A DNA stretch of 28,032 nt from a virus. Made by a program: the position numbers and the translations under genes. Each line of letters begins with the position of its first letter. Positions within the stretch are counted from its first letter, which is position 1. The stretch is taken from positions 1 to 28,032 of IMG/VR virus record IMGVR_UViG_3300033146_002799; one strand, written 5' to 3'. The notes under the pieces are model-generated. The model searched no databases, had not been told where the DNA came from, and worked only from the letters and a program-made list of their open reading frames with translations. This document shows, piece after piece, positions 936-28,032 of the stretch.

Positions 936-2240
936 TTAAAATGATATACCACCAAAGTCATATTCATTGCCTTCACCATTATTCATAACATTTTTAAGTG
1001 TATTGTTTGTATTATCCACGTCATAATTTGTATCATCTACATAATCAATATATCTCATTTTAGGATAATCGGATTCTAACATAATACTACCTAACATACC
1101 AGTATTTCTATTTTTCAAAAATTTAATTTGTACTTGATTCAAATCTCTCATTTGTTCTGTAGCTATCATTGCTAACATTGTATCAGCTGTAGCAGCCAAT
1201 CCTATTGATTCAGATATAGATTCCATACCTACTTCTGAGTTACCAAAGGCGGACCTATTTAGCTGGGCAGCACTTACAACCGGTACATTATATTTTTTAC
1301 TAAATCCATGACATTCTTCAGCTATTGTTTTGACATACATATAAGTACCTCCAGATTTAGCTAATGTAGTTCTAGAAGAAGCCATAAGACCTAAATAATC
1401 TATCATAATAATATCAGGTTTAAAACCATCATTTTCTAATTCATTTATTAAACCTTCTAAATGTAAAATGTTAAAAGTACCTGCTGGATATTCTTTAATT
1501 ATTAATTCACCCAAATTATCTTTAATAGCATTGAATTTTTTTGTTATTTCTTCTTCAGGTGTAGATGGTAATTGGTTAATATCAATATTTAATATATTGG
1601 CATCAATTCTTTTAGCCGTTTCTTCTTCTGACATTTCCAAAGTAATATATAAAACATTAATTTTTTTAAATACCATATTAGCAGCAATACAGGCCAAAAG
1701 GGCTGAATTATGATTTAGAACACCATCTGCTGTATAATATAAATGAGGATTGCTAATGCCTATATCATAAACATAATCATCTGAATAATATTCTTTTGTT
1801 TTAACTTTTAATTTTCCGTTTTTTGATATAACATAATCAATTTCAGAAGCATATTTATCCATTCCATCATATTGAGGATATAAATGTTTTTCTGCTACTT
1901 TATGAATTGTATTGTCTTCAAAAGTTATCTTTATGATTTTATGTATTTCTTTTTTGATTCCTGCATTTATTCTTGTAAAACCAGAAGGTGTTTCAATATA
2001 ATAATTATTAATAAGTTGAACAGGAAAATTTATTTCAGTTATATTATTATAATCTATGAAATCACCTATTTTTATTTGAATTTCTTCCAATTCTTCATCT
2101 TCTATTACTATATCTTTATTTTGTCTTTCAAGATTTTTTTCTTTTTTATACATTAATTTATGAGCTATTTCAAATAATTCTTCTTCAGAAATATCCAAAC
2201 CTTTGTATGTTTCTTTAAGTATTTTTATAAGTTCTTCCAC
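936..2240 (-). CDS. 41: Replicative helicase gp41, C-terminal half preceded by C-part of a split intein
   Basis: The frame is open from an ATG at 2273, but I prefer the GTG at 2240. TAAAAGGAAAACA sits just before it, whereas the ATG has no ribosome site and an in-frame stop close upstream. The first ~178 residues are intein: a charged helical extension, IKIGDF, a block-B-like segment ITFEDNTIHKVAEKH, then block F/G NPHLYYTADGVLNHN. The 256-residue C-extein starts with Ser and matches T4 gp41: NVLYITLEMSEEETAKRIDA, the Walker B-like IIMIDYLGL, SAAQLNR and GLAATADTMLA. It is the RecA-type motor domain of a DnaB-family 5'-3' helicase that unwinds DNA at the phage fork. It lacks the P-loop lysine, which is on the other half, so it should be inactive until joined. 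Confidence 0.88.
   Translation of the reverse strand: MEELIKILKETYKGLDISEEELFEIAHKLMYKKEKNLERQNKDIVIEDEELEEIQIKIGDFIDYNNITEINFPVQLINNYYIETPSGFTRINAGIKKEIHKIIKITFEDNTIHKVAEKHLYPQYDGMDKYASEIDYVISKNGKLKVKTKEYYSDDYVYDIGISNPHLYYTADGVLNHNSALLACIAANMVFKKINVLYITLEMSEEETAKRIDANILNIDINQLPSTPEEEITKKFNAIKDNLGELIIKEYPAGTFNILHLEGLINELENDGFKPDIIMIDYLGLMASSRTTLAKSGGTYMYVKTIAEECHGFSKKYNVPVVSAAQLNRSAFGNSEVGMESISESIGLAATADTMLAMIATEQMRDLNQVQIKFLKNRNTGMLGSIMLESDYPKMRYIDYVDDTNYDVDNTNNTLKNVMNNGEGNEYDFGGISF
1707..2240 (-). other. C-terminal fragment of split intein
   Basis: The fragment runs from the GTG start to the Asn codon at 1709-1707, immediately before the Ser (+1) of the C-extein. The terminal His-Asn (LNHN|S) is the conserved penultimate-His/Asn cyclisation pair of inteins. 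Block B is recognisable, with its His in AEKH; the usual Thr/Ser of TxxH is Ala here. The order of a sequence like YYIETPSGFTRINAGIKK, then block B, then the C-terminal blocks resembles phage inteins such as AceL-TerL. The first ~55 residues are highly charged, with an acidic stretch IEDEELEEIQ. No homing endonuclease motif is seen. Confidence 0.85.
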
Positions 2241-2273
2241 TGTTTTCCTTTTAAATGTTTCACTTGTATTCAT

Positions 2274-2417
2274 TAGGATTTATATTTTCTATTTTACACT
2301 TTTTTTCTTTAAAAATGTCTGTAGAAAAAGCTTTTGTTGTAGTAAATCCATGATAAATCTTTTATTGTGAAATATGTAATTTTTTCACTCTCAAATATTT
2401 TTCTTTTGAGGAAGGTT
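2274..2417 (-). other. Spacer between the two helicase/intein half-genes
   Basis: This gap separates two half-genes that lie in the same reading frame. In that frame there are four stops (two TGA, one TAG, one TAA) besides the TAA that ends the N-half, so one sequencing error could not create the break. No gene is supported. Another frame reads through about 33 codons into the C-half start without an initiation codon; it could be a remnant of lost sequence. At 2277-2284 the minus strand reads TATAAATC, one mismatch from the late-promoter box. A weak hairpin (GTGAAA...TTTCAC) lies near 2366-2387. Confidence 0.6.
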
Positions 2418-3104
2418 TTAAATTTGCATTTTTCTTTTGATGTAATAACCTTTTGTCTCCATATCTTTCACTATGTTTTTTGGTATCAATACATCTATAA
2501 GTGTAGAATATTCTGAACACTTTCCACCATGACTTGGAGCAGATATAAGATTAAGAGTTTTGTTCATATATCCTCCTCCAAGTGCTTTATCTAAAGAAGG
2601 AATACCTGTGCTTAATCCTTGAATTTTTCTATGATAATATTTTGCTCTATCTTCTACACTACTTCTATATGAAAGTCCAGTATCAGTATCAAAATTAACA
2701 TTCAAAGCCTCACTAACCATTCCAACTATGGGTTCAAATTCTCCATCTGTTTGTATAATGTCAGCTGCTTTAAAAATTGATTGAGTTAATTTTTGTTTTT
2801 GTACCCAAGTTTCTGTTTTTGAAATAATGAAATCTAAATTAGTTATTGATTCACTTTTAGCAATTTCTTTAAATTTTTCTAATGTAGCATTTTTCATTGA
2901 AGAAGACAATGTATTAGATTCTTTTATGCTTAAACCAATTTCTTTGAGTGAAGGTTTGGTTGAAAATTCATCTACATACTTTTTGATATTGGAAAATATC
3001 AAAGAATTTTCTTCACTTTGAAATAAATCTTCAGATAAATGAGTAAATGATTTAGAAAAAAATAAATTGTTATTCATAAGTGTTTTTAATATAGTTTCTT
3101 CCAT
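2418..3104 (-). CDS. 41: Replicative helicase gp41, N-terminal half fused to N-part of a split intein
   Basis: The 228-residue protein has 195 residues of helicase N-extein and a 33-residue intein start. The N-extein ends with LSTGIPSLDKALGGGYMNKT and LNLISAPSHGGK. This matches the entry to the motor domain of T4 gp41 (GTLNVLMAGVNVGKS) and stops after the Walker A lysine. Next comes Cys196, the usual nucleophile of an intein, then STLIDVLIPK and a basic tail to the stop. The upstream part is helical, as in the N-terminal domain of DnaB-type helicases. The ATG lies 2 bases after the phosphoesterase stop and its AAAAAAGGA ribosome site overlaps that stop, so the genes are probably coupled. Without splicing the product ends inside the P-loop and cannot be a helicase. 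Confidence 0.88.
   Translation of the reverse strand: MEETILKTLMNNNLFFSKSFTHLSEDLFQSEENSLIFSNIKKYVDEFSTKPSLKEIGLSIKESNTLSSSMKNATLEKFKEIAKSESITNLDFIISKTETWVQKQKLTQSIFKAADIIQTDGEFEPIVGMVSEALNVNFDTDTGLSYRSSVEDRAKYYHRKIQGLSTGIPSLDKALGGGYMNKTLNLISAPSHGGKCSEYSTLIDVLIPKNIVKDMETKGYYIKRKMQI
2421..2519 (-). other. N-terminal fragment of split intein
   Basis: Thirty-three codons start with the Cys at 2519-2517, directly after the helicase sequence GGK. Cys1 followed by a beta-strand-like STLIDVLIPK is the expected block A of an intein. The fragment ends with a lysine/arginine-rich tail (GYYIKRKMQI) and contains no block B. Most split inteins break after about 100 residues. A fragment this short resembles the atypically split class (AceL-TerL, VidaL-type inteins). 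Confidence 0.83.
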
Positions 3105-3106
3105 TT

Positions 3107-4090
3107 TTATCCTTTTTTGTTTTCTAATTTGTCTAATGTTTGATCTATCAAATTAACAATATATTTACTAAATTCTATCATTTTTTGAGGTGTTGAATTT
3201 TCTATTTTAGATCCAAAAGCAGACGAATGTCCTCCTGCTACTTCAATATATGGCAATTCTTTTATTTTTTTAACAATATAATCTTTAAATTTGCCACCTT
3301 TAGAAATACTATTATCCAATCTGACTGAAACACCACCTGTGCTTCTAATAATTATATAAGTTAAATAATCAGGATAATCTATTGTTATGAAAGATTGATA
3401 ATCATCAATAAAAATTAAAAAAATTCTTTTATTTCCAAAAGTCATAATTCTTCCTGATTTTTTTAATTTATCAAATAATTTATTCTTTTTATCAACTATA
3501 TTTTTATATTCTTCTTTGTCTTTTGAAGACAAAGAATGATTATCTTTAAATTTGGACCAAAAGTAATCTTTACCATATTTCCAATACAATTCATTATAAA
3601 CAAAACCTGGTTTAAATTCTTTTTTGTTTCTGAGCCATAAATCATAAGCATTAACTCTTTCAACAAATTCATTTAATTCTTTTGTTCCTTTTAAATCATA
3701 TTTGGATTTTAATAACAAATAAACTAATTTTGTAGCACATGCTTTATCTGTTATTATTATAGAAAAATTGCTTGTAACCAAATCTTTATAATTACCATTT
3801 GTTTCATCAAATGGATGATGATCTACAAAATGAAAAAAAGTATCAGGATATTTTTTGGTTATTTGATATAATTTTTTTAATTGTTTAAATGAAAAGGATA
3901 AATCAGTAACAAAAATTTTATTTGGAGATGTTCTAAAACAAAAATCATCTATAATTTCAATATATTCATCTATTTTATTATAAGTGATGTTCATTTTTTT
4001 AAATTCTCCAAATACTTGTCTTATAATTATTTGACAAGATATTCCATCCAAATCGGAATGACTTAAAACAAGAATATTTTCTCTATACAT
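3107..4090 (-). CDS. DHH/DHHA1-family phosphoesterase
   Basis: The 327-residue protein has the DHH motifs in order: SHSDLDG (Asp13, Asp15), VTDLS (Asp63), DHH (90-92) and a fourth Asp in NAYD (150). The C-terminal substrate-binding signature VAGGHSSAFGSKIE (GGH near 286-288) is typical of DHHA1 domains. Such enzymes (RecJ, NrnA, GdpP-type) use two metal ions to hydrolyse phosphodiesters in single-stranded DNA, short oligonucleotides or cyclic dinucleotides. The length and two-domain layout are closest to NrnA-like enzymes. The ATG overlaps the gp62-like stop by 8 bases and follows AAAGGAATTGA. Location in the replication operon suggests DNA trimming or nucleotide recycling. Degradation of a signalling dinucleotide is possible but unsupported. 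Confidence 0.8.
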   Translation of the reverse strand: MYRENILVLSHSDLDGISCQIIIRQVFGEFKKMNITYNKIDEYIEIIDDFCFRTSPNKIFVTDLSFSFKQLKKLYQITKKYPDTFFHFVDHHPFDETNGNYKDLVTSNFSIIITDKACATKLVYLLLKSKYDLKGTKELNEFVERVNAYDLWLRNKKEFKPGFVYNELYWKYGKDYFWSKFKDNHSLSSKDKEEYKNIVDKKNKLFDKLKKSGRIMTFGNKRIFLIFIDDYQSFITIDYPDYLTYIIIRSTGGVSVRLDNSISKGGKFKDYIVKKIKELPYIEVAGGHSSAFGSKIENSTPQKMIEFSKYIVNLIDQTLDKLENKKG

Positions 4091-4562
4091 TCAATTCCTT
4101 TAATTTATTTTTATTTTTTAAGATAACTCTATACTCTTGTATTTTTTTTGTGTCTGATGCTGACATGTAATTTTCATTCATTCTTCCATAAGTTTCTAAC
4201 AATTTAACAAGTTCATCATATGATAATGTTTTAAGATACTCTTTTGCTGTGCTTTTTCCTACTTGATAATGAGTAGTTATTAATTTTATGAGAGTGTTTA
4301 ATAATTTATCATTTTTATCCATTTTTATGTATGTATTAGGTTTTAAATGTATTAAACCTTTTAATGTTTTATATTCTTCTATTTTTCCTATATATTTATT
4401 TCCTCTGGCAGTATTCAATAAATTTGATTCATATAATGCTTGAGGATGTCCTGAAAGCCATTTAAAAGCAGCCCAACCATTATAATGTTGAAGGATTAAT
4501 TCATCGGAAATATTTTTTTTATTTATGATAGAAGTCATTACTGTAAAATATTCATTGGCCAT
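4083..4562 (-). CDS. 62: Clamp-loader small subunit, gp62-like
   Basis: The 159-residue protein has the pattern of the phage clamp-loader A subunit: FKWLSGHPQALYESNLLN, then a spacer containing Y-K-T-L, then LIKLITTHYQVGKSTAKEYL and LSYDELVKLLETYG. In T4 gp62 the corresponding stretch is IKLLAKRYQVNTNDAINYKS; cyanophage gp62 has a similar FPDTI/ANEMN segment. With four gp44 ATPases, gp62 loads the sliding clamp onto primed DNA. It opens the operon with the phosphoesterase and helicase halves and is preceded by an early-type promoter motif. A homologous gene lies divergently at 4659-5054. Identity is by motif pattern only, and gp62 sequences diverge widely. Confidence 0.6.
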   Translation of the reverse strand: MANEYFTVMTSIINKKNISDELILQHYNGWAAFKWLSGHPQALYESNLLNTARGNKYIGKIEEYKTLKGLIHLKPNTYIKMDKNDKLLNTLIKLITTHYQVGKSTAKEYLKTLSYDELVKLLETYGRMNENYMSASDTKKIQEYRVILKNKNKLKELNV

Positions 4563-4588
4563 TTGTATTCCTTTTATTTTATTTGTAT

Positions 4589-4612
4589 ATTATACTTGAA
4601 TTTTGTTTAAAT
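4589..4612 (-). promoter_or_regulatory. Early/middle-type promoter of the gp62-DHH-gp41 operon
   Basis: Read on the minus strand: ATTTAAACAAA, 7 bases, TATAAT. The same arrangement with the same spacing occurs upstream of gp44 and the HU-like gene. The -10 box is perfect and preceded by G, as in extended -10 promoters. The upstream box is centred too close to be a normal -35. Confidence 0.6.
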
Positions 4613-4632: not shown

Positions 4633-4640
4633 TATAAATA
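4633..4640 (+). promoter_or_regulatory. Late-type promoter box TATAAATA
   Basis: A perfect T4 late-promoter octamer on the plus strand, 18 bases before the GTG of the plus-strand gp62-like gene. An AAAAGAGAG ribosome site lies between them, the compact layout seen at other late boxes here. It lies back to back with the early-type promoter of the minus operon. Confidence 0.55.
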
Positions 4641-5080: not shown

Positions 5081-5353
5081 TTATACTAGTTCTTTACCTG
5101 CTTTTGAAAGTCTAAGTTTGACTGTTTTACCAGCTGGTTTAGACCAAGCTTTTTCATCTCCACCAAGTCTAGTTACTCCACTTCTTGCTGCTGTATCAAC
5201 TACTACAAGTTTACCAATACCCGGAAGTACAACTTCACCACTTTCTACACCTTCTGTGATTGCTGTCATTACAGTATCCAAAGTTCTCGCTGCTTCTGCG
5301 TTTGAAGTTTCCATTTTACCAGCTACTGCTGCAATTAATTCTTTTTTGTTCAT
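5081..5353 (-). CDS. HU/IHF-family DNA-binding protein
   Basis: The 90-residue protein has the HU layout: N-terminal helices MNKKELIAAVAGKM...EAARTLDTVM, then GEVVLPGIGKLVVVDTAAR, an arm region, and KTVKLRLSKAGKELV at the end. HU proteins are dimers that bend and coat DNA. The arm tip (GVTRLGGDEKAWSKPAGK) differs from the usual bacterial RNPQTG sequence. The coding region is about 38% G+C by hand count, clearly richer than its neighbours, and rich in Ala, Gly and Val, which may mean recent acquisition. It has its own early-type promoter, a leader of about 110 bases, a partly sequestered ribosome site and a terminator. It may compact or organise phage DNA, or be packaged; that is inference. 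Confidence 0.88.
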   Translation of the reverse strand: MNKKELIAAVAGKMETSNAEAARTLDTVMTAITEGVESGEVVLPGIGKLVVVDTAARSGVTRLGGDEKAWSKPAGKTVKLRLSKAGKELV

Positions 5354-8656: not shown

Positions 8657-10396
8657 TTAAATTTCATCTATGTTTAAAGAACTATATGTTTTTTTTGTGA
8701 TATTTACTATTCTATTGAATAATTCTATTTTTTCTTTTATTTCAGAATTATGACTAATAATTATAATATTTTTTGATGATGAAAATTCTTCTTTCAATAT
8801 ATTTAATAATTCTTCTCTTCCTCTTGAATCTACGGAACTGTCAAGAATTTCATCCAATATGAGTAAATTTGTTTTAACACCATTTCTTTTTTCTATCAAT
8901 TTTAAAAAAGCAAACATCAAACTAAATGAAATTCTAGCCTTTTGTCCATTTGATAATTGATTAAATTCAGAATCTTCATTTTTAGATATAATTCTTTCTT
9001 TAAAATGTTCATCTATAATAAAAGAATAATCCACAATAGAAAATAATTCTAAAAAATAATTTATTCCTTTATTTAAAAAAGGAATTTGTTGTTTGATGAT
9101 AGAACCTTTTAAATTATCAGCACCAATTATAGAAGACAATGAAATGTATTTGTCTAATAAAATATTATCTTTTTTCATTATAACAGTAATTTTTTCTAAT
9201 TCTTTTTTATTTTCATTTAAAATAGAATAATTTATTTTTTCTAATTTTATATTATTTAATTCAATTAATGAATTTTCATAATATTTTAAATCATTTTTTA
9301 ACTCATTTAATGTTTCTTTTATTCTTTTGCCATTTAATAATTTTTCTTTCATTTTATCAGATGTTGTTTTGATTTCATTATATAAATTATTATATTGTAA
9401 TATATTTTTTTCAATTTTTTCTTTATTATTAATGAAATGATTTTTTTTAGATACATCAACATCAATAAGATAATTTTTTGTACCACAATCATTACAAATA
9501 ATTGCTCCTTTTTCAGCACTATCAATTTTAGATAATTCATTTTTTATATTTTGTAATTGATCATTGAATAATGTCAAATTATTTTTTAAAGCATTTTCTT
9601 CTATTTTGATAATGTCATATTCATCTTTTATTTTTTTTAATTTAATGAGACCTTCTGTATATTTTTCTATTTTTTCTTGAGTTGTTTTTATATTGGAATT
9701 TGTTATATCTATATTTTCTTTATGATTATTTTCAAAATTTTTGTTTCTTTCTTCTGCTTGTTTTATCATATTTTCTTCAGATGATATATGAGATTCTAAT
9801 AATTCTCTTTTATAAGTTTTGTCTTTAATATCACTTTTTAATACAGATATTTTATCCTTAATATTATCATTTATGATATTAAAAATAGATGTATCTGTTA
9901 TTACTTGAAACAAACTTTCTTTTTCTTGTTTTGATAATTCCATAAATGGTTTAGAAGAGGGTAAATTAGCTCCTAATATAATAAGTTGTCTAAAAATGAT
10001 TTCATTTATCATTAATATTTCATTTTCTAACATTTTCTGATAATCTTTAGAAGCTGCTTTTTGTTCAATCAAAACAAATTTGTTTTTACTTTTTTTATAA
10101 ATTTCAAATACAGCAGGTTTCATTCCTCTTATTATTTTATATTCATTTTTATTAACATTAAATAATATTTCTACTGATAACTTTTTTTTCTGTATTCTAT
10201 TAATTAAAGAGTTTGCTTTTATTTTTCTAAAAGGTTTGCCAAACAATGAATAAAATATAACGTCAGCTATAACAGACTTTCCTTCTCCATTTAAACCTAA
10301 TACTAAATCTATTCCATTTTCAAAATCATATGTATTGTAATTTTCTCCATAAGATAAAAAGTTTTTCCATTTGACATTTTTAAAAATTATATTCAT
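8657..10396 (-). CDS. 46: Recombination nuclease ATPase subunit gp46 (SbcC/Rad50-like)
   Basis: The 579-residue protein has the full SMC/Rad50 plan: Walker A LGLNGEGKSVIADVIFYSLF (near 33-52), a coiled coil, a zinc hook CNDC (Cys301, Cys304), a second coiled coil, the ABC signature LSNGQKARISFSL (near 481-493) and Walker B LLILDEILDSS (near 511-521). SLFGKPFRKIKANSLI and MKPAVFEIY match T4 gp46. With gp47 it forms the nuclease that resects DNA ends for recombination-dependent replication and host DNA degradation. The ATG follows AAAGGAAATAT, 9 bases after gp47. Confidence 0.95.
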   Translation of the reverse strand: MNIIFKNVKWKNFLSYGENYNTYDFENGIDLVLGLNGEGKSVIADVIFYSLFGKPFRKIKANSLINRIQKKKLSVEILFNVNKNEYKIIRGMKPAVFEIYKKSKNKFVLIEQKAASKDYQKMLENEILMINEIIFRQLIILGANLPSSKPFMELSKQEKESLFQVITDTSIFNIINDNIKDKISVLKSDIKDKTYKRELLESHISSEENMIKQAEERNKNFENNHKENIDITNSNIKTTQEKIEKYTEGLIKLKKIKDEYDIIKIEENALKNNLTLFNDQLQNIKNELSKIDSAEKGAIICNDCGTKNYLIDVDVSKKNHFINNKEKIEKNILQYNNLYNEIKTTSDKMKEKLLNGKRIKETLNELKNDLKYYENSLIELNNIKLEKINYSILNENKKELEKITVIMKKDNILLDKYISLSSIIGADNLKGSIIKQQIPFLNKGINYFLELFSIVDYSFIIDEHFKERIISKNEDSEFNQLSNGQKARISFSLMFAFLKLIEKRNGVKTNLLILDEILDSSVDSRGREELLNILKEEFSSSKNIIIISHNSEIKEKIELFNRIVNITKKTYSSLNIDEI

Positions 10397-12764: not shown

Positions 12765-12790
12765 TATAAATATTACTTAATATATAAATA
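12752..12790 (+). promoter_or_regulatory. Tandem late promoters TATAAATA (two copies, 18-bp period)
   Basis: Two perfect TATAAATA boxes at 12765-12772 and 12783-12790 lie within overlapping 21-bp copies (12752-12772 and 12770-12790). A looser third copy precedes them. The second box is 5-6 bases before AAAAGG, the ribosome site of the tail-tube-like gene. Confidence 0.65.
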
Positions 12791-14240: not shown

Positions 14241-14248
14241 TATTTATA
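14241..14248 (-). promoter_or_regulatory. Late-type promoter TATAAATA
   Basis: Perfect octamer on the minus strand, followed after 5 bases by AAAGGAG and the GTG start of the fibre-like gene. Confidence 0.6.
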
Positions 14249-14913: not shown

Positions 14914-14921
14914 TATTTATA
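14914..14921 (-). promoter_or_regulatory. Late-type promoter TATAAATA
   Basis: Perfect octamer on the minus strand at the 3' side of the gp7-like gene. AAAAAGG and the ATG of the 207-residue structural gene follow closely. Confidence 0.6.
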
Positions 14922-18034: not shown

Positions 18035-18042
18035 TATTTATA
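18035..18042 (-). promoter_or_regulatory. Late-type promoter TATAAATA
   Basis: Perfect octamer on the minus strand overlapping the last bases of the gp6-like gene and upstream of the short wedge paralogue. Spacing to the ribosome site TAGGAAAA is slightly longer than at the other boxes. Confidence 0.5.
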
Positions 18043-21741: not shown

Positions 21742-21749
21742 TATTTATA
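21742..21749 (-). promoter_or_regulatory. Late-type promoter TATAAATA
   Basis: Perfect octamer on the minus strand, followed after 5 bases by AAAAGGAT and the gp25 ATG. It could drive gp25 and gp6 together. Confidence 0.6.
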
Positions 21750-22730: not shown

Positions 22731-23888
22731 TTAATTTAAAGTTATCATAGCAGCAGTCATTGATATGCTTGTTCCACCATTTACACTTAATCCGCTACCA
22801 TAAGTTTGATTACCTTTTCCGCCTACCATTAAATCATAATTTCCACCAATAGTTCCATCGTATTTTCCTCCAATAGTTTCATCATAATTTCCACCAATAG
22901 TTCCATCATAATTTCCTGAAATATCATCTGTTTCATCTCCTGAAATAGTTAAATCAAAATTAGCACTATAATCATGAGTTACATCTCCAGTAACTTCTAA
23001 AGAATGTTCAGCTTCATAAATTTCTTCCACATCTCCTGAAACTGTTTCTTTTGAATCACCTCCAACTACAATAGTTCTATCTCCATCAATTTTATATAAT
23101 GAATTTCCTTGAACAGTATGAGTTTCATTTTGTTTAATAAATCTTTCTGCATCCATATCAACAATAAGTTTTTGACTATCAACTACTTTAACACTATGCA
23201 TTCCGCTAGGTAATATTTCAGTATATGTTCCTGAATTATGAAAATGATGATATCTTCCTCCAGAAGTACAATCATATTCTACAAAACTTCCATCAGGCCA
23301 TGCTTGAGATTCATTATTAGGATATGAAACACTAGAAGTTGATTCTTTTTGTTCACTATTTGTTTCTCCTTCTTTAGCAGTTGGAATATCTTCATCAATA
23401 TTTTGATCTCTTACTTTTTTAATACCCGTTTCATTAATTTTTCTATTAGCAGAAGTTCTGGTAGTACCTTCTTCTATTTTATCTTCTTCAGGATATTTTT
23501 GATCAGGATCTTCAAAACCTTTATTTCCAGTAGGTTTTGAAGCTTCAGCTCCATATATTATTCCACAAACAATTGGTTTATTCCAATCACCAGAATCAAA
23601 AAATACCCACACCCAAGCACCTTGTAAAGGAATGGCAGTTTTTCCATATGTACCCACTCCACCCATTACATCAGTTGGACCCATTACTTCTGCCCAAGGC
23701 AATTCTTCTGGTGGAACACCCATATTTGTACCTGTTCTTTTGTTTTCAGGAGAATGAACTCCTAAAATTCTAACTTGAACTTTTCCTTTTCCTCCATCAT
23801 TATTATTTTCAACCACTGCTCTATAAAAAATATTTTGTGGTTGATGTATATTATTAATGTGATCCATATTTTTAAACAAATCTAACAT
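22731..23888 (-). CDS. 5: Baseplate hub spike gp5-like, without lysozyme domain
   Basis: The 385-residue protein has an OB-fold domain: FYRAVVENNNDGGKGKVQVR, ILGVHSPENK, PEELPWAEVM and AWVWVFFDSGDWNKPIVCGI. This is the gp5/gpV/VgrG N-terminal pattern (T4: GRCRVRCLGIHSDN, ELPWAYP). An acidic linker follows, then a C-terminal beta-helix with 8-residue repeats of the GNYDGTIG type, which forms the trimeric membrane-piercing needle. T4 gp5 has a lysozyme domain between these two; here only a ~70-residue linker is present. The gene follows the gp27-like hub gene by 10 bases. The lytic function may have moved to the amidase protein at the right edge. Confidence 0.8.
   Translation of the reverse strand: MLDLFKNMDHINNIHQPQNIFYRAVVENNNDGGKGKVQVRILGVHSPENKRTGTNMGVPPEELPWAEVMGPTDVMGGVGTYGKTAIPLQGAWVWVFFDSGDWNKPIVCGIIYGAEASKPTGNKGFEDPDQKYPEEDKIEEGTTRTSANRKINETGIKKVRDQNIDEDIPTAKEGETNSEQKESTSSVSYPNNESQAWPDGSFVEYDCTSGGRYHHFHNSGTYTEILPSGMHSVKVVDSQKLIVDMDAERFIKQNETHTVQGNSLYKIDGDRTIVVGGDSKETVSGDVEEIYEAEHSLEVTGDVTHDYSANFDLTISGDETDDISGNYDGTIGGNYDETIGGKYDGTIGGNYDLMVGGKGNQTYGSGLSVNGGTSISMTAAMITLN
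22839..22910 (-). repeat. Three 24-bp tandem repeats in the spike gene
   Basis: Three units (22839-22862, 22863-22886, 22887-22910) encode GGNYD-type turns of the beta-helix. Units 1 and 3 differ by one base and the middle unit by a few. They mark one beta-helix rung per unit. Confidence 0.75.
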
Positions 23889-23898
23889 TTATTTTCCT

Positions 23899-25017
23899 TT
23901 ACATCATGTATTTTGCTCTAGATAATGTTAATCTCTGAACAAAATCAGGAGGAACAATATTATCTACAACTTTTGTTATTAACCAATTTCCACTAATGTT
24001 AATTTCAGGCAACATTGACATTCCATAACTAACCAAATCTAATTCTACAATATCTCCCACATTAGTTTCAAATTTTCCTGGTACTAATATATTTATTTGT
24101 AAATCTTTATGAGAGTTTCTACTCCACATTTGTTCAGTAGCTGATTTATTATGTGTAGTTGATCTATAATATAATTTTTCTCCTGTATCTTTGATACTTC
24201 CTGCTGTGTTTCCTGTACTTGATAATTTTCCTTGAGAACCAGAATTAGTTTCAGTAACTTCTTCTGGTGCCTTTTTCTTTGGATCAAAAGATACCACTTT
24301 TCCTTTAGGTTGAAATATATTTGTAGCTAATGATTTTCCAAAAATAGTTTCATAAGCATATATTCTACTTCTATATGTAGAATTTGGAGATTTATATATA
24401 AATTTATTTCCTGTTTTGCTACCTCCAAACAAATCCTTATATGTTTTTATACAAAAATTGTCTCTTGTTTGAAAAACTACAACATTATCCTTTTTAGCCA
24501 TCCAATGAATTATGACATTAAAAGATACTCCCAGATGCATAACAAAATTTTCATATTCTGTTAAATCAGAAGTAAAATCTGTTTGTTTACCACTTAAAGC
24601 TGATTTTAATGTTTCTTGATGATCAATAATATCACTCATTTTGGCTTTTTTCCAACTCATACCATTATACATTCTTATAGCTTCCATTGATATAGGATCA
24701 ACAAATTTCAACATAACAGCCGGTTCACCTGATTGTATTCTTGTTTGTGTAACATCAACAACTATAAATTCTTGTTTGCTAACTCCTCCATCAAAATCAG
24801 TCATTGACATTACTATTTTATTGTCTCCTCTTATTGGTAATCTGGTAACCATATCACTCATGTCCCTAAAAACCATAGATCCAACAACATTCATACTATC
24901 TAAAGTCCATCTCATTTGAATGGAATTAACTTGTCCATTAGTCAATTTGGTTCCATCTATTTTAACTGAAAAATCTTTTAATTGGTTAGATGCTAAACCA
25001 ATAGTATATCCTTCCAT
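23899..25017 (-). CDS. 27: Baseplate hub protein gp27-like
   Basis: The 372-residue protein (T4 gp27: 391) begins with a hub-type pattern: VNSIQMRWTLDSMNVVGSMV, FRDMSDMVTRLPIRGDNKIV, then QEFIVVDVTQTRI, FVDPISMEAI and a second domain with FNVIIHWMAKKDNVVVFQTR. The end, FETNVGDIVELDLVSY...GNWLITKVVDNIVPP, is the beta-barrel domain of gp27/gpD-type hubs. Three copies form the ring that joins the tail tube to the gp5 spike. It lies directly before the spike gene, matching the gp27-gp5 pairing. Start is ATG after AAGGATTGATAA, just after the gp53-like gene. Confidence 0.68.
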   Translation of the reverse strand: MEGYTIGLASNQLKDFSVKIDGTKLTNGQVNSIQMRWTLDSMNVVGSMVFRDMSDMVTRLPIRGDNKIVMSMTDFDGGVSKQEFIVVDVTQTRIQSGEPAVMLKFVDPISMEAIRMYNGMSWKKAKMSDIIDHQETLKSALSGKQTDFTSDLTEYENFVMHLGVSFNVIIHWMAKKDNVVVFQTRDNFCIKTYKDLFGGSKTGNKFIYKSPNSTYRSRIYAYETIFGKSLATNIFQPKGKVVSFDPKKKAPEEVTETNSGSQGKLSSTGNTAGSIKDTGEKLYYRSTTHNKSATEQMWSRNSHKDLQINILVPGKFETNVGDIVELDLVSYGMSMLPEINISGNWLITKVVDNIVPPDFVQRLTLSRAKYMM

Positions 25018-25020
25018 TTA

Positions 25021-25536
25021 TCAATCCTTATTAATAATTAAATTACTATTTATGTTTGGTTCTTGTTTTAAATTATTCAAATCAGCTAATAATTCTGACA
25101 TATCCGTTGGTGATATATATTTAAAATTTCTAAATTTTTCATTTTTTTCCATATAATCATTCAATATTTCTTGATATTTAGCTTCTTTATAAACATCAAC
25201 TTCTATATTAAGTATTTTATACATTTTTTCAAGCCAATTTTGATAATCATATTCAGCATATTCTTGTATAGTATCATATTTTGTTGGTAATTGATTTGTT
25301 CTTGTGATACCATTCAATACCATAAGAATATCCCAAAAATCAGTTGTACCATAAATGTCATATGATATTTTTTCTAATAAAGAATCATCTTCTATTTTTT
25401 TATATAAAATATAATCCTTACCTAAAAATTTTTCAGGAATTTTAGGTAATAATATTAAATCAGTGGAATTAACAACTTCTCCTAAAGAAGTAAGTATTGT
25501 ATCCATTTTTAAATAAGAATTATTCATAAGTCTCAT
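25021..25536 (-). CDS. 53: Baseplate wedge protein gp53-like
   Basis: The 171-residue protein has the gp53 plan: an N-terminal strand, then a LysM-like helix pair LEKISYDIYGTTDFWDILMV followed by LNGI (T4: LANAIYGNPQLYWVLLMCN), and an end with YKEAKYQEILNDYMEK and a helical tail. gp53 joins wedges around the hub during baseplate assembly. I start at the ATG at 25536, which overlaps the preceding TGA as ATGA and has GGAGG six bases before it. A longer frame begins at 25560 inside the upstream gene without a better ribosome site. Confidence 0.72.
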   Translation of the reverse strand: MRLMNNSYLKMDTILTSLGEVVNSTDLILLPKIPEKFLGKDYILYKKIEDDSLLEKISYDIYGTTDFWDILMVLNGITRTNQLPTKYDTIQEYAEYDYQNWLEKMYKILNIEVDVYKEAKYQEILNDYMEKNEKFRNFKYISPTDMSELLADLNNLKQEPNINSNLIINKD

Positions 25537-26228
25537 ATAATACCTCCAAATAAACTCCAATCACTTCTGGTTTTTATACCAAATTCTGATAAATTCAAAG
25601 TTAATTCAATATGTTTTGGCATCATATCTTTATATGTACTTGGATATCCTTGAGCAAAATAATTTATTGAATATGATTCAATAGCCATTTTATTAAAACT
25701 CATTGCTAATTCAATAACTGGATTACTAAAAGTTAAACCTAATACATAGGGTTGTTCTAATACTCCTAATTTGTCTGACATTATAGATGCCTTATCTGGA
25801 GCAGCATAAGTTTTTAAGTTTTTTATTAATAAAAAAACTAATGCAGCTTCTCCTAAAGATTGAGGTATTATTTGCCAAGTTCCACTCCATTTTCTTGGTG
25901 TAGTTCCTTGATAAATATTAGTCATCATTGGATCTGGTACTACACCAGCCAACATAGATATAGAATCACCTAAAGTGCCCTTCATAGAATCTGCTACTTT
26001 TGAACCAAAAGGGTGATTTTGAGTAAAAGTGTTACTTTGAGTATCAATCATCCCTGTATCTGGAAATGGCAATACAAATCCTCCTACAGGAAGAAAAAAG
26101 TTAAATGCTGTAGACCAATTTTGTGACATAGCCACATTTATCATTGGTTTATAAGCTATAAAAATGATAAATGGTCTAACATTATGAGACGTTGGGTCTG
26201 AAGAAAAAATATTCATAGGATATATCAT
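25533..26228 (-). CDS. Baseplate-tube junction protein, gp48/gp54-like
   Basis: The 231-residue protein contains the tube-cap pattern of gp48/gp54: RKWSGTWQIIPQSLGEAALV, LIKNLKTYAAP, then QPYVLGLTFSNP and SYSINYFAQGYP, ending in a strand IELTLNLSEFGI. In T4, gp48 and gp54 sit on the hub and start tail-tube polymerisation. The N-terminal ~90 residues, rich in Pro, Phe and Gly, are not assigned. Start is ATG after AAAGGAGATAAAAGAT, with a TATAAATA box upstream, and the gp53-like gene overlaps its stop. Which of gp48 or gp54 it represents cannot be told. Confidence 0.55.
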   Translation of the reverse strand: MIYPMNIFSSDPTSHNVRPFIIFIAYKPMINVAMSQNWSTAFNFFLPVGGFVLPFPDTGMIDTQSNTFTQNHPFGSKVADSMKGTLGDSISMLAGVVPDPMMTNIYQGTTPRKWSGTWQIIPQSLGEAALVFLLIKNLKTYAAPDKASIMSDKLGVLEQPYVLGLTFSNPVIELAMSFNKMAIESYSINYFAQGYPSTYKDMMPKHIELTLNLSEFGIKTRSDWSLFGGII

Positions 26229-26249: not shown

Positions 26250-26257
26250 TATTTATA
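26250..26257 (-). promoter_or_regulatory. Late-type promoter TATAAATA
   Basis: Perfect octamer on the minus strand directly after the amidase gene, followed after 5 bases by AAAGGAG and the ATG of the tube-junction gene. It could drive the hub operon down to the unknown 318-residue gene. Confidence 0.6.
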
Positions 26258-26260
26258 TTG

Positions 26261-28032
26261 TTAAAACAATGTTCCTAATTGATTAAACAATAAATCATTA
26301 TAATCAGCTTGTTCTAAAGTCAATGTTCTGGATTCAGTTGGACCAGTCATTACATTTGTCACATTATTATTTTCTATTCTTTGCTTTTCAGATTTAACTT
26401 TTTGAGCACTTAATCTTGCTATTCTTTTTGTTTCACTACCTATATCTAAATTTGATTGTCTTTTATTAGATACTTCAACTTTTGTTTTAATGTTGCCATT
26501 ATTAATTTGTGTTCTTAATTCACTACTGGGAGCAGTTTTATTAATTTTATTTTCACAAGATGTATTATTTACTGAATTCCACAAACTAGAATTGGAATTT
26601 TGACTAATATTTGTATTGTTGTTTATGTTAGTTTCATCAACATTATTAGAATTAGTCCCAAATAAATTGCTTAATGAAACATTAGAATTGTTAGATATTT
26701 TGGTTGATTCTGTTTTTAATGATGATTTATTACTTCCAAATATATTTTCAAAAAATGATTTTTCTTTCTTTTTAGTCATGTCAGTTTTGATGCCCAAAGA
26801 TTCTATACTTAAACCACCATTTTTATCAATCATATTATTATTGGTTGCTATTGATTTAGCTGCTTGAAAAGTTTCTTTATCAATATCATCAACTATTTTA
26901 TTAAAATCTTGCATGAAAGAAGATTTGACACCTGGTTTTGATGTATTGTTAACTCCTACAGATTTATTTAAACCTCTATTAGAAACTGTATTTATCCCAA
27001 ACATGTTTCCTATAGCTCCAAATAAATTTCCTCCTCCTTTAACAACACTTTTACCCATATTTGATAAATTACCAAAAATTCCCAATTCTTTTTTCTTTTG
27101 CATTTTTGTTTTAATACCAAAACTTGATAAACCTACATTACCTTGTTTATCAACCAATTCCATATTATACAATGCTGATTTAGCTGCTTGAAAAGTTTCT
27201 TTATCAATATCATCAACTATTTTATTAAAATCTTGCATGAAAGAACCATTATTGTTTTCACTTTTTGAAGCTGAAGCTAATGAATTAGTGCCTCCTAAAT
27301 TTCCTGGATCTCCAATAGAAGCAATAGGTGAACTTTCATTTCCTTGTTTGTTTGGCAATCCTTCATTATTATCTATTAAACTACCTTCATCTGAAACACC
27401 CAATTTACCACTAGGTGAAATTTTAAGTATTTTTTTATAATCAAATACAGGACAATCTTTTTTAGCTACTTCTCTATGTCCTCTAAATGTCATATTTTTT
27501 TCATAAGCATTATTAATATCTCCAGTTATTTTTTTTAATGAAGTATATTGAGCTGATGTAAATTTGTTTTTATCCAATCCATGAAGAACAATAGCAATGG
27601 CTCCTATATTATATCCTTTAGCTTGAGCAGGAGTTTTTTCTATATTTCTACCTTTTGATATAGAACCATCTTTATGTATCATATAATGATAACCTATTTC
27701 TGTCCAACCTCTTTTTTTATGCCATCTATTTATTGTGGCAATATTATCATGATCTGGATTATCAGAAGCACTACAATGTATCCAAGTAGTATCACATTTT
27801 CTATTAGGTTTAGTGAAAGTAGCACCTCCTTTTGAACCTATATCTTTTTTAATATTGTTATTATCTTTTCCAGGAACATTATCACTTTTATCTACATCAA
27901 ATCCTATATCTTCTGGAGCTTCTTTTTTGTTTTGTGTAGCCATAGAAGCTATGCTAGTTTGAGAATTATTTTCTCCATGTGAAGTTTGTAATCCAGAATT
28001 TCTAGGTGCTATATCAGCATATGATTTGTTAT
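26261..28032 (-). CDS. Amidase-domain tail protein, 5' end beyond window
   Basis: The frame is open to the right edge; an internal ATG lies at 27943, but about 29 more codons are open upstream. Counting from that ATG, residues 50-170 form an N-acetylmuramoyl-L-alanine amidase of the T7 lysozyme (Amidase_2) type. The zinc ligands His56, His156 and Cys164, plus Tyr85 and Lys162, have exactly the spacing of T7 lysozyme His17, His122, Cys130, Tyr46 and Lys128. It cleaves the peptide stem from the glycan of peptidoglycan. The remaining ~390 residues are Asn/Ser/Lys-rich and contain two copies of a ~50-residue block starting SFMQDFNKIVDDIDKETFQA. Upstream of the hub operon, it is probably a virion-borne lytic enzyme. 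Confidence 0.82.
   Translation of the reverse strand, partial: NKSYADIAPRNSGLQTSHGENNSQTSIASMATQNKKEAPEDIGFDVDKSDNVPGKDNNNIKKDIGSKGGATFTKPNRKCDTTWIHCSASDNPDHDNIATINRWHKKRGWTEIGYHYMIHKDGSISKGRNIEKTPAQAKGYNIGAIAIVLHGLDKNKFTSAQYTSLKKITGDINNAYEKNMTFRGHREVAKKDCPVFDYKKILKISPSGKLGVSDEGSLIDNNEGLPNKQGNESSPIASIGDPGNLGGTNSLASASKSENNNGSFMQDFNKIVDDIDKETFQAAKSALYNMELVDKQGNVGLSSFGIKTKMQKKKELGIFGNLSNMGKSVVKGGGNLFGAIGNMFGINTVSNRGLNKSVGVNNTSKPGVKSSFMQDFNKIVDDIDKETFQAAKSIATNNNMIDKNGGLSIESLGIKTDMTKKKEKSFFENIFGSNKSSLKTESTKISNNSNVSLSNLFGTNSNNVDETNINNNTNISQNSNSSLWNSVNNTSCENKINKTAPSSELRTQINNGNIKTKVEVSNKRQSNLDIGSETKRIARLSAQKVKSEKQRIENNNVTNVMTGPTESRTLTLEQADYNDLLFNQLGTLF
26852..26921 (-). repeat. 70-bp direct repeat, copy A
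   Basis: Identical base for base to 27176-27245 and in the same reading frame. It encodes SFMQDFNKIVDDIDKETFQA followed by AKS. The copies are 324 bases apart (108 codons). Confidence 0.9.
27176..27245 (-). repeat. 70-bp direct repeat, copy B
   Basis: Second copy, nearest the amidase domain. The similarity continues at protein level beyond the identical bases (FGIKTKMQKKKE against LGIKTDMTKKKE), so the repeat unit is about 50 residues with a perfect core. Confidence 0.9.

Follow-up and report, generated by a model that had tools for sequence, protein, structure and literature searches.

The lysozyme of phage T4 sits on the gp5 spike. Tape measure proteins (TMPs) that carry wall enzymes and TMPs that contain repeats are already known, and the idea that pairs a spike without lysozyme with an enzyme on the TMP is in print for phage P1. 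P1 is a contractile phage whose TMP, Sit, has a lytic transglycosylase domain near its C-terminus and whose gp5-like spike is without lysozyme; its authors propose that the TMP supplies the activity missing from the spike, and they fit tail length with the TMP part that lies before the enzyme (PMC9024508). The TMP of mycobacteriophage TM4 contains a peptidoglycan hydrolase motif, and deletion of 114 residues from it yields tails about 20 nm shorter (PMC1796659). A difference of 95 residues between ICP1 and its satellite PLE11 corresponds to about 10 nm (PMC12987554). In TP901-1, the TMP contains 29 short in-frame repeats of 11 or 18 residues marked by aromatic residues, and the authors suggest that such repeats ease duplication and deletion, and thus adaptation of tail length (PMC5099701).

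The DNA analyzed here (the window) is a whole virus record of 28,032 bases. A minus-strand ORF at one end, spanning 26261-28030, encodes at least 589 residues of the protein, with a T7-lysozyme-type amidase domain and, behind it, a module present in two copies (Table 1). Like P1 Sit, it would be a contractile-phage TMP that has a wall enzyme toward its C-terminus and is accompanied by a gp5-like spike in which no lysozyme domain was found, but the enzyme is an amidase rather than a transglycosylase and is followed by the two-copy module (PMC9024508). As in TM4, the hydrolase motif is internal, and the 114 residues deleted there are near the size of the 108-residue unit of the window; TM4 differs in its non-contractile tail and in that its change was engineered (PMC1796659). 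The ICP1/PLE11 difference is likewise comparable in size to this unit (PMC12987554). In-frame repeats are shared with TP901-1, although those of the window are two modules of ~63 residues, spaced by 108 residues and C-terminal to the enzyme (PMC5099701).

Table 1. Features of the window; positions are those of the 28,032-base record, and residues are numbered from the first visible residue of the ORF
Feature	Position	Strand	Basis or remark
C-terminal part (at least 589 residues) of a probable tail TMP-type protein	26261-28032	-	ORF open at contig end; upstream of gp48; C-terminal profile
Amidase_2/T7-lysozyme-type N-acetylmuramoyl-L-alanine amidase domain	27422-27814	-	Residues 73-203
70-nt repeat, first copy in protein	27176-27245	-	Residues SFMQDFNKIVDDIDKETFQAAKS; 70/70 nt identical
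Module 1	27056-27244	-	Residues 263-325; boundary set by us where clear similarity ends
70-nt repeat, second copy in protein	26852-26921	-	70/70 nt identical to the other copy
Module 2	26732-26920	-	Residues 371-433; boundary set by us
Conserved C-terminal segment	26261-26509	-	Residues 508-589 and stop; common to relatives' tape-measure-type proteins
gp48-like baseplate tail-tube cap, next gene downstream	25533-26228	-	phrog_230, E 4.7e-14
gp53-like baseplate wedge protein	25021-25560	-	phrog_232 baseplate wedge subunit, E 7.3e-5; position as in phiKT1024
gp27-like hub/tail protein (name inferred from position)	23899-25017	-	phrog_350 tail protein, E 4.9e-13
gp5-like spike, OB and trimerization parts, lysozyme domain not found	22731-23888	-	Pfam
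TATAAATA before an ORF start	26250-26257	-	Start 26228
TATAAATA before an ORF start	21742-21749	-	Start 21722
TATAAATA before an ORF start	18035-18042	-	Start 18015
TATAAATA before an ORF start	14914-14921	-	Start 14896
TATAAATA before an ORF start	14241-14248	-	Start 14223
TATAAATA before an ORF start	4633-4640	+	Start 4659
TATAAATA before an ORF start	12783-12790	+	Start 12811

The initial annotation had placed the repeat inside an amidase gene. An amidase domain is indeed present in the same ORF (PF01510, E 8.2e-11, above the cut-off; phrog_822, E 1.7e-38). Its closest solved structure is T7 lysozyme (1aro, E 2.6e-24), and the two align at what we take to be the zinc and active-site residues of that enzyme: His, Tyr, His, Lys and Cys. 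The record ends before the ORF does, however, placing the 5' end of the gene beyond the contig. Its position, the long genes of its relatives and the match of its C-terminus to theirs favor the C-terminal part of a tail TMP over an amidase with a linker. What had been called an amidase is thus most likely the end of a TMP with an amidase domain embedded in it. Taken as a whole, the explanation that this is the C-terminal part of a TMP with a T7-lysozyme-type amidase and a duplicated, recently homogenized module is one we hold to be probable.

The order of the amidase ORF and the gp48, gp53-like, gp27-like and gp5 genes recurs among the baseplate genes of two Vibrio phages, phiKT1024 and Va1, and the phiKT1024 protein at the gp53-like position matches Phage_gp53. 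The place of the window ORF, directly upstream of gp48, is taken in T4 by gene 29, whose product is the tape measure and sets tail length; gp29 thus shares with our ORF both position and inferred role (PMC3004832). It differs in that it has 590 residues, a Pfam enzyme domain was not found in it, and its C-terminus is not detectably similar.

Using alignments of the neighboring proteins as scan queries, we identified five related contigs (L018, L099, L101, L104 and L108). L018 ends inside gp48, so no upstream gene is visible there. In all four that reach upstream, gp48 is preceded at a distance of 20-30 nt by the end of a long gene in the same orientation; these genes encode 1227 (L099), 1419 (L101), 1720 (L104) and 1064 (L108) residues, and one or more hydrophobic stretches are present in every product. 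Ahead of the long gene, L099, L101 and L104 have a pair of genes encoding 229-242 residues. The L104 pair, the one put to the test, resembles baseplate proteins: one member matches PF12322 (T4 baseplate, E 2.9e-30), and both match phrog_150 (baseplate hub). In L108, the ORF upstream of the long gene is of another kind. In a PHROG comparison that covered the long proteins of L099, L101 and L104, each matched a tape-measure family (phrog_24, E 6.5e-4; phrog_16823, E 1.3e-15, through the peptidase part; and phrog_58, E 7.6e-8, respectively).

We built a profile from the last 90 residues of the L099, L101, L104 and L108 proteins and searched the 71 window ORFs and 1000 shuffles with it. It matched the last 82 residues of the window ORF (508-589) with 24.6 bits (E 1.1e-6); the next window ORF scored 3.2 bits, and the best of the 1000 shuffles of the window protein 7.0 bits. 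The same profile did not detect T4 gp29 or other distant proteins. Whereas the amidase homology, the gene position and the shared C-terminus are observed, the function as a TMP is inferred. Against this reading stand the location beyond the contig of the N-terminal part, where a long helical ruler region with hydrophobic stretches would be expected, and the modest size of the C-terminal match; moreover, none of the 589 visible residues form a hydrophobic stretch at the chosen threshold. Pfam's model of the T4 tape measure, PF25671, matched neither the window protein nor the proteins of its relatives or of phages ValKK3 and D479; it is listed for T4 alone, and on this evidence appears specific to near relatives of T4 gp29.

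In the alternative, which follows the view of the initial annotation, the gene encodes an endolysin or tail-associated amidase that stands by itself, with a candidate baseplate-binding peptide present twice in its C-terminal tail. An ATG at 27943 would yield an amidase of 560 residues, and the repeated peptide would be strongly amphipathic if helical, with a helical hydrophobic moment of 0.54, a high value reached by 6 of 10,000 shuffles. We nevertheless consider a free-standing amidase unlikely: no start or stop closes the frame before the contig ends, the relatives have a protein of >1000 residues at the same site, and the C-terminus of the window protein matches theirs.

If the ORF does encode the end of a TMP, the protein would occupy the tail tube while the tail is being built and would be expelled before the DNA. 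The amidase would then open the peptidoglycan, replacing the gp5 lysozyme of the T4 style; use of the enzyme at entry is our interpretation. In a Pfam comparison of 12 proteins that are at the TMP position or were judged TMP-like, 7 contain a wall-degrading domain, and these differ in kind: Amidase_2 in the window, VanY in phiKT1024, L101 and L104, phage lysozyme in L013 and L108, and glycoside hydrolase 19 in L017. L099 has LysM only, and in the remaining four (CPt10, T4, ValKK3 and D479) no Pfam wall domain was found. In L017, ValKK3 and D479, the gene judged TMP-like has the opposite orientation and is not directly upstream of gp48, and its designation is based on size, hydrophobic stretches and neighborhood. 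The CPt10 protein upstream of gp48 is named endolysin in its own record and PHROG family; by eye it appeared CHAP-like, a candidate assignment that we dropped as Pfam showed no such domain. A lysozyme domain was not found in 11 of 12 gp5 proteins (the window and 10 other phages), and the positive control, phiAS5, has one. A rule by which a gp5 without lysozyme implies an enzyme in the TMP was rejected, since ValKK3 and D479 have neither by Pfam.

Turning to the repeat, the initial annotation had reported two identical 70-bp copies, which our comparison bears out. Because the gene is on the minus strand, the copy at the higher coordinates comes first in the protein, a correction to that annotation, as is the fact that the gene runs off the contig end. 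The start-to-start distance is 324 nt and both copies are in the same codon phase, so that recombination between them would indeed gain or lose exactly 108 codons in frame, as had been proposed. The 70 nt are the longest exact repeat of the whole contig; with one copy removed, the next longest is 27 nt, and in 50 sequences simulated with the window's own order-3 Markov statistics the longest repeats were 16-21 nt. The surrounding sequence had been described as an otherwise diverged repeat of ~50 residues, and in agreement with this, 15/35 residues and 61/105 nt match beyond the 23 identical residues.

An assembly artifact that joined two alleles would also give a repeat of this kind in a virus contig. 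However, the flanks of both copies are unique, the frame is continuous across them, and the same gene has in-frame repeats in relatives; we regard such an artifact as highly improbable. Preservation of the 70 nt as a DNA or RNA element, such as a promoter or a recombination or homing site, would fit identity at the nucleotide level. This has, in our estimate, scarcely any likelihood, in that the block is wholly coding and in phase, no Rfam match at gathering score occurs in the contig, and TATAAATA, presumably the core of the T4 late promoter, is absent from both copies.

Among residues shared by the two modules, codons are identical at 23/23 positions inside the block and 9/15 outside it (Fisher p 0.0018). 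Under independent codon choice, with the usage of 17 window ORFs, 23 identical codons would arise with a chance of about 10^-3.9, a value that serves only as a guide, as copies with a common ancestor do not vary independently. Without any conversion, peptide-level selection by itself might have kept 23 residues the same in two old copies, and the arrangement of the repeat could be taken to favor this: its copies share a codon phase, and the end of the identical block coincides with a codon boundary while its start falls one base ahead of one. Selection at the protein level leaves synonymous sites unfixed, though, and the contrast in codon identity makes this explanation quite unlikely in our view.

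The simplest reading of the two sequences is instead a recent copying event over about 70 nt atop an older in-frame duplication with a 108-codon period, because peptide selection would leave the identical synonymous sites unexplained. The initial proposal that perfect identity reflects recent copying or gene conversion thus gains support from the perfect block beside diverged flanks. From this mosaic identity, together with the repeat and its phase, we infer that after duplication had produced the module pair, gene conversion or unequal crossing-over recently made the first 23 codons of both copies identical. The 70-nt identity would in turn allow the locus to gain or lose one 108-codon unit without frameshift. 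Large deletions with direct repeats of only 5-10 nt at their borders have been described in phages of the T4 family, and slippage or recombination is the proposed mechanism (PMC5449768).

Both modules open with the same 23 residues, in which two low-confidence AlphaFold2 models (mean pLDDT 40.5 and 59.3) place two short helices; the predicted shape of the whole module in these models is two helices, a short paired strand and further helices. Asn, Ser, Gly, Thr, Pro and Gln together make up 48% of the 386-residue tail behind the amidase, versus 31% of the amidase and 34% of the modules. The protein probably holds an Asn/Ser-rich tether with two ~63-residue modules between enzyme and conserved C-terminus. 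The similarity between the module and phrog_29258 was too weak to be retained (E 0.0036 for the whole protein and 0.035 for module 2 alone; module 1 was not listed). A "DKxGN" likeness to parts of L099 and L108, noticed by eye, was rejected on hhalign probabilities of 0.3 and 0.7%.

Direct repeats of at least 28 nt with in-frame spacing occur in the TMP genes of three of the four relatives. These are a 72-nt repeat (81%, spacing 390) in L099; 18- and 33-nt tandem units and an exact 38-nt repeat (spacing 48) in L101; and repeats with spacings of 51 and 48, among others, in L108. The L104 gene has one 44-nt, 70% pair only. At the same settings, the TMP-position genes of the more distant L013, CPt10 and phiKT1024 showed no such repeats. 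With exact 24-nt seeds applied to all of L018, L099, L101, L104 and L108, four of six repeat families fall in TMP genes (three in L101, one in L108) and none in those of L099 or L104; L018 does not reach the gene. The remaining two families lie at L108 1-346, outside the listed ORFs of at least 150 residues. There, before the first such ORF, are direct repeats of 110 and 69 nt (95 and 93%) with ~180-nt spacing. In L101, about six head-to-tail 18-nt units at 8872-9015 separate the peptidase part of the TMP from its C-terminus and are likely a length-variable linker.

Judging from their sequences, the repeats of different phages probably arose separately, because they differ from phage to phage and the window's module was detected in none of seven other TMP-position proteins by sequence searches or hhalign. 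A protein scan with the whole ORF found five loci, all of which matched the amidase region (query residues 68-210 or 71-210), and a scan restricted to the repeat region gave no locus. When 26720-27275 was compared with phages by distant blastn, the 15 of 118 records listed were short AT-rich hits with E values of 0.004 or worse, and a scan of genome contigs with the gp48 alignment returned no relatives. No copy-number variant was found, because no relative with the window's repeat was found in these searches, which may omit records very near the window. The analysis does add a small group of uncultivated T4-like phages, one lineage whose TMPs combine differing wall-acting domains with lineage-specific in-frame repeats.

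What a change in copy number would mean depends on where the repeat sits in the tail. The initial annotation had considered a length-variable linker; with the gene read as a TMP, length variability becomes a possible question of tail length as well. If the segment belongs to an alpha-helical ruler, one 108-residue unit would correspond to about 16 nm at 1.5 A per residue. By our judgment, a part in the ruler is a possible but doubtful role, and a candidate role at the baseplate end, as tether or in hub binding, takes the remaining weight. The enzyme is on one side of the repeat and the conserved C-terminus on the other, and this C-terminus, by analogy with other phages, would face the baseplate. 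The repeat may sit at the baseplate end because it is behind the enzyme, and in P1 the part before the enzyme was the one fitted to tail length (PMC9024508).

A more elaborate possibility is a contingency repeat, through which recombination in a phage population would step the TMP among one, two and three 108-codon units and so vary the length of the tails; alternatively, two modules per chain might match a threefold TMP to the sixfold tail-tube cap. The T4 TMP is listed at three copies (PMC3004832). We consider this proposal very unlikely. Should copy number vary, however, this locus would offer a natural example of what has been suggested for TP901-1, namely that repeats let tail length change (PMC5099701).

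Several other features of the window and its relatives were recorded. Seven of the nine window matches to TATAAATA lie about 20 nt before an ORF start (Table 1), and their number is not enriched (9 found, 12.7 expected). In L099, two similar ORFs among tail-tube-like genes (1352-2095 and 3898-4605) are homing-endonuclease-like by eye, and one of them shares its first residues, MSGPMN, with the gene next to it. The HU-like DNA-binding protein gene at 5081-5353 on the minus strand of the window (PF00216) has a GC content of about 38% versus 20-27% around it and is possibly a recent acquisition. Split inteins are known in gp41 helicases, and at 936-3104 on the minus strand a gp41-like DnaB helicase is encoded in two ORFs, with an apparent intein split by eye. 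The N part (2418-3104), for which a Pfam-type search gave no domain, enters apparent intein sequence after ..SHGGK; the C part (936-2273), in which DnaB_C was found, opens with apparent intein sequence that ends ..VLNHN and is followed by ..SALLACIAANM.
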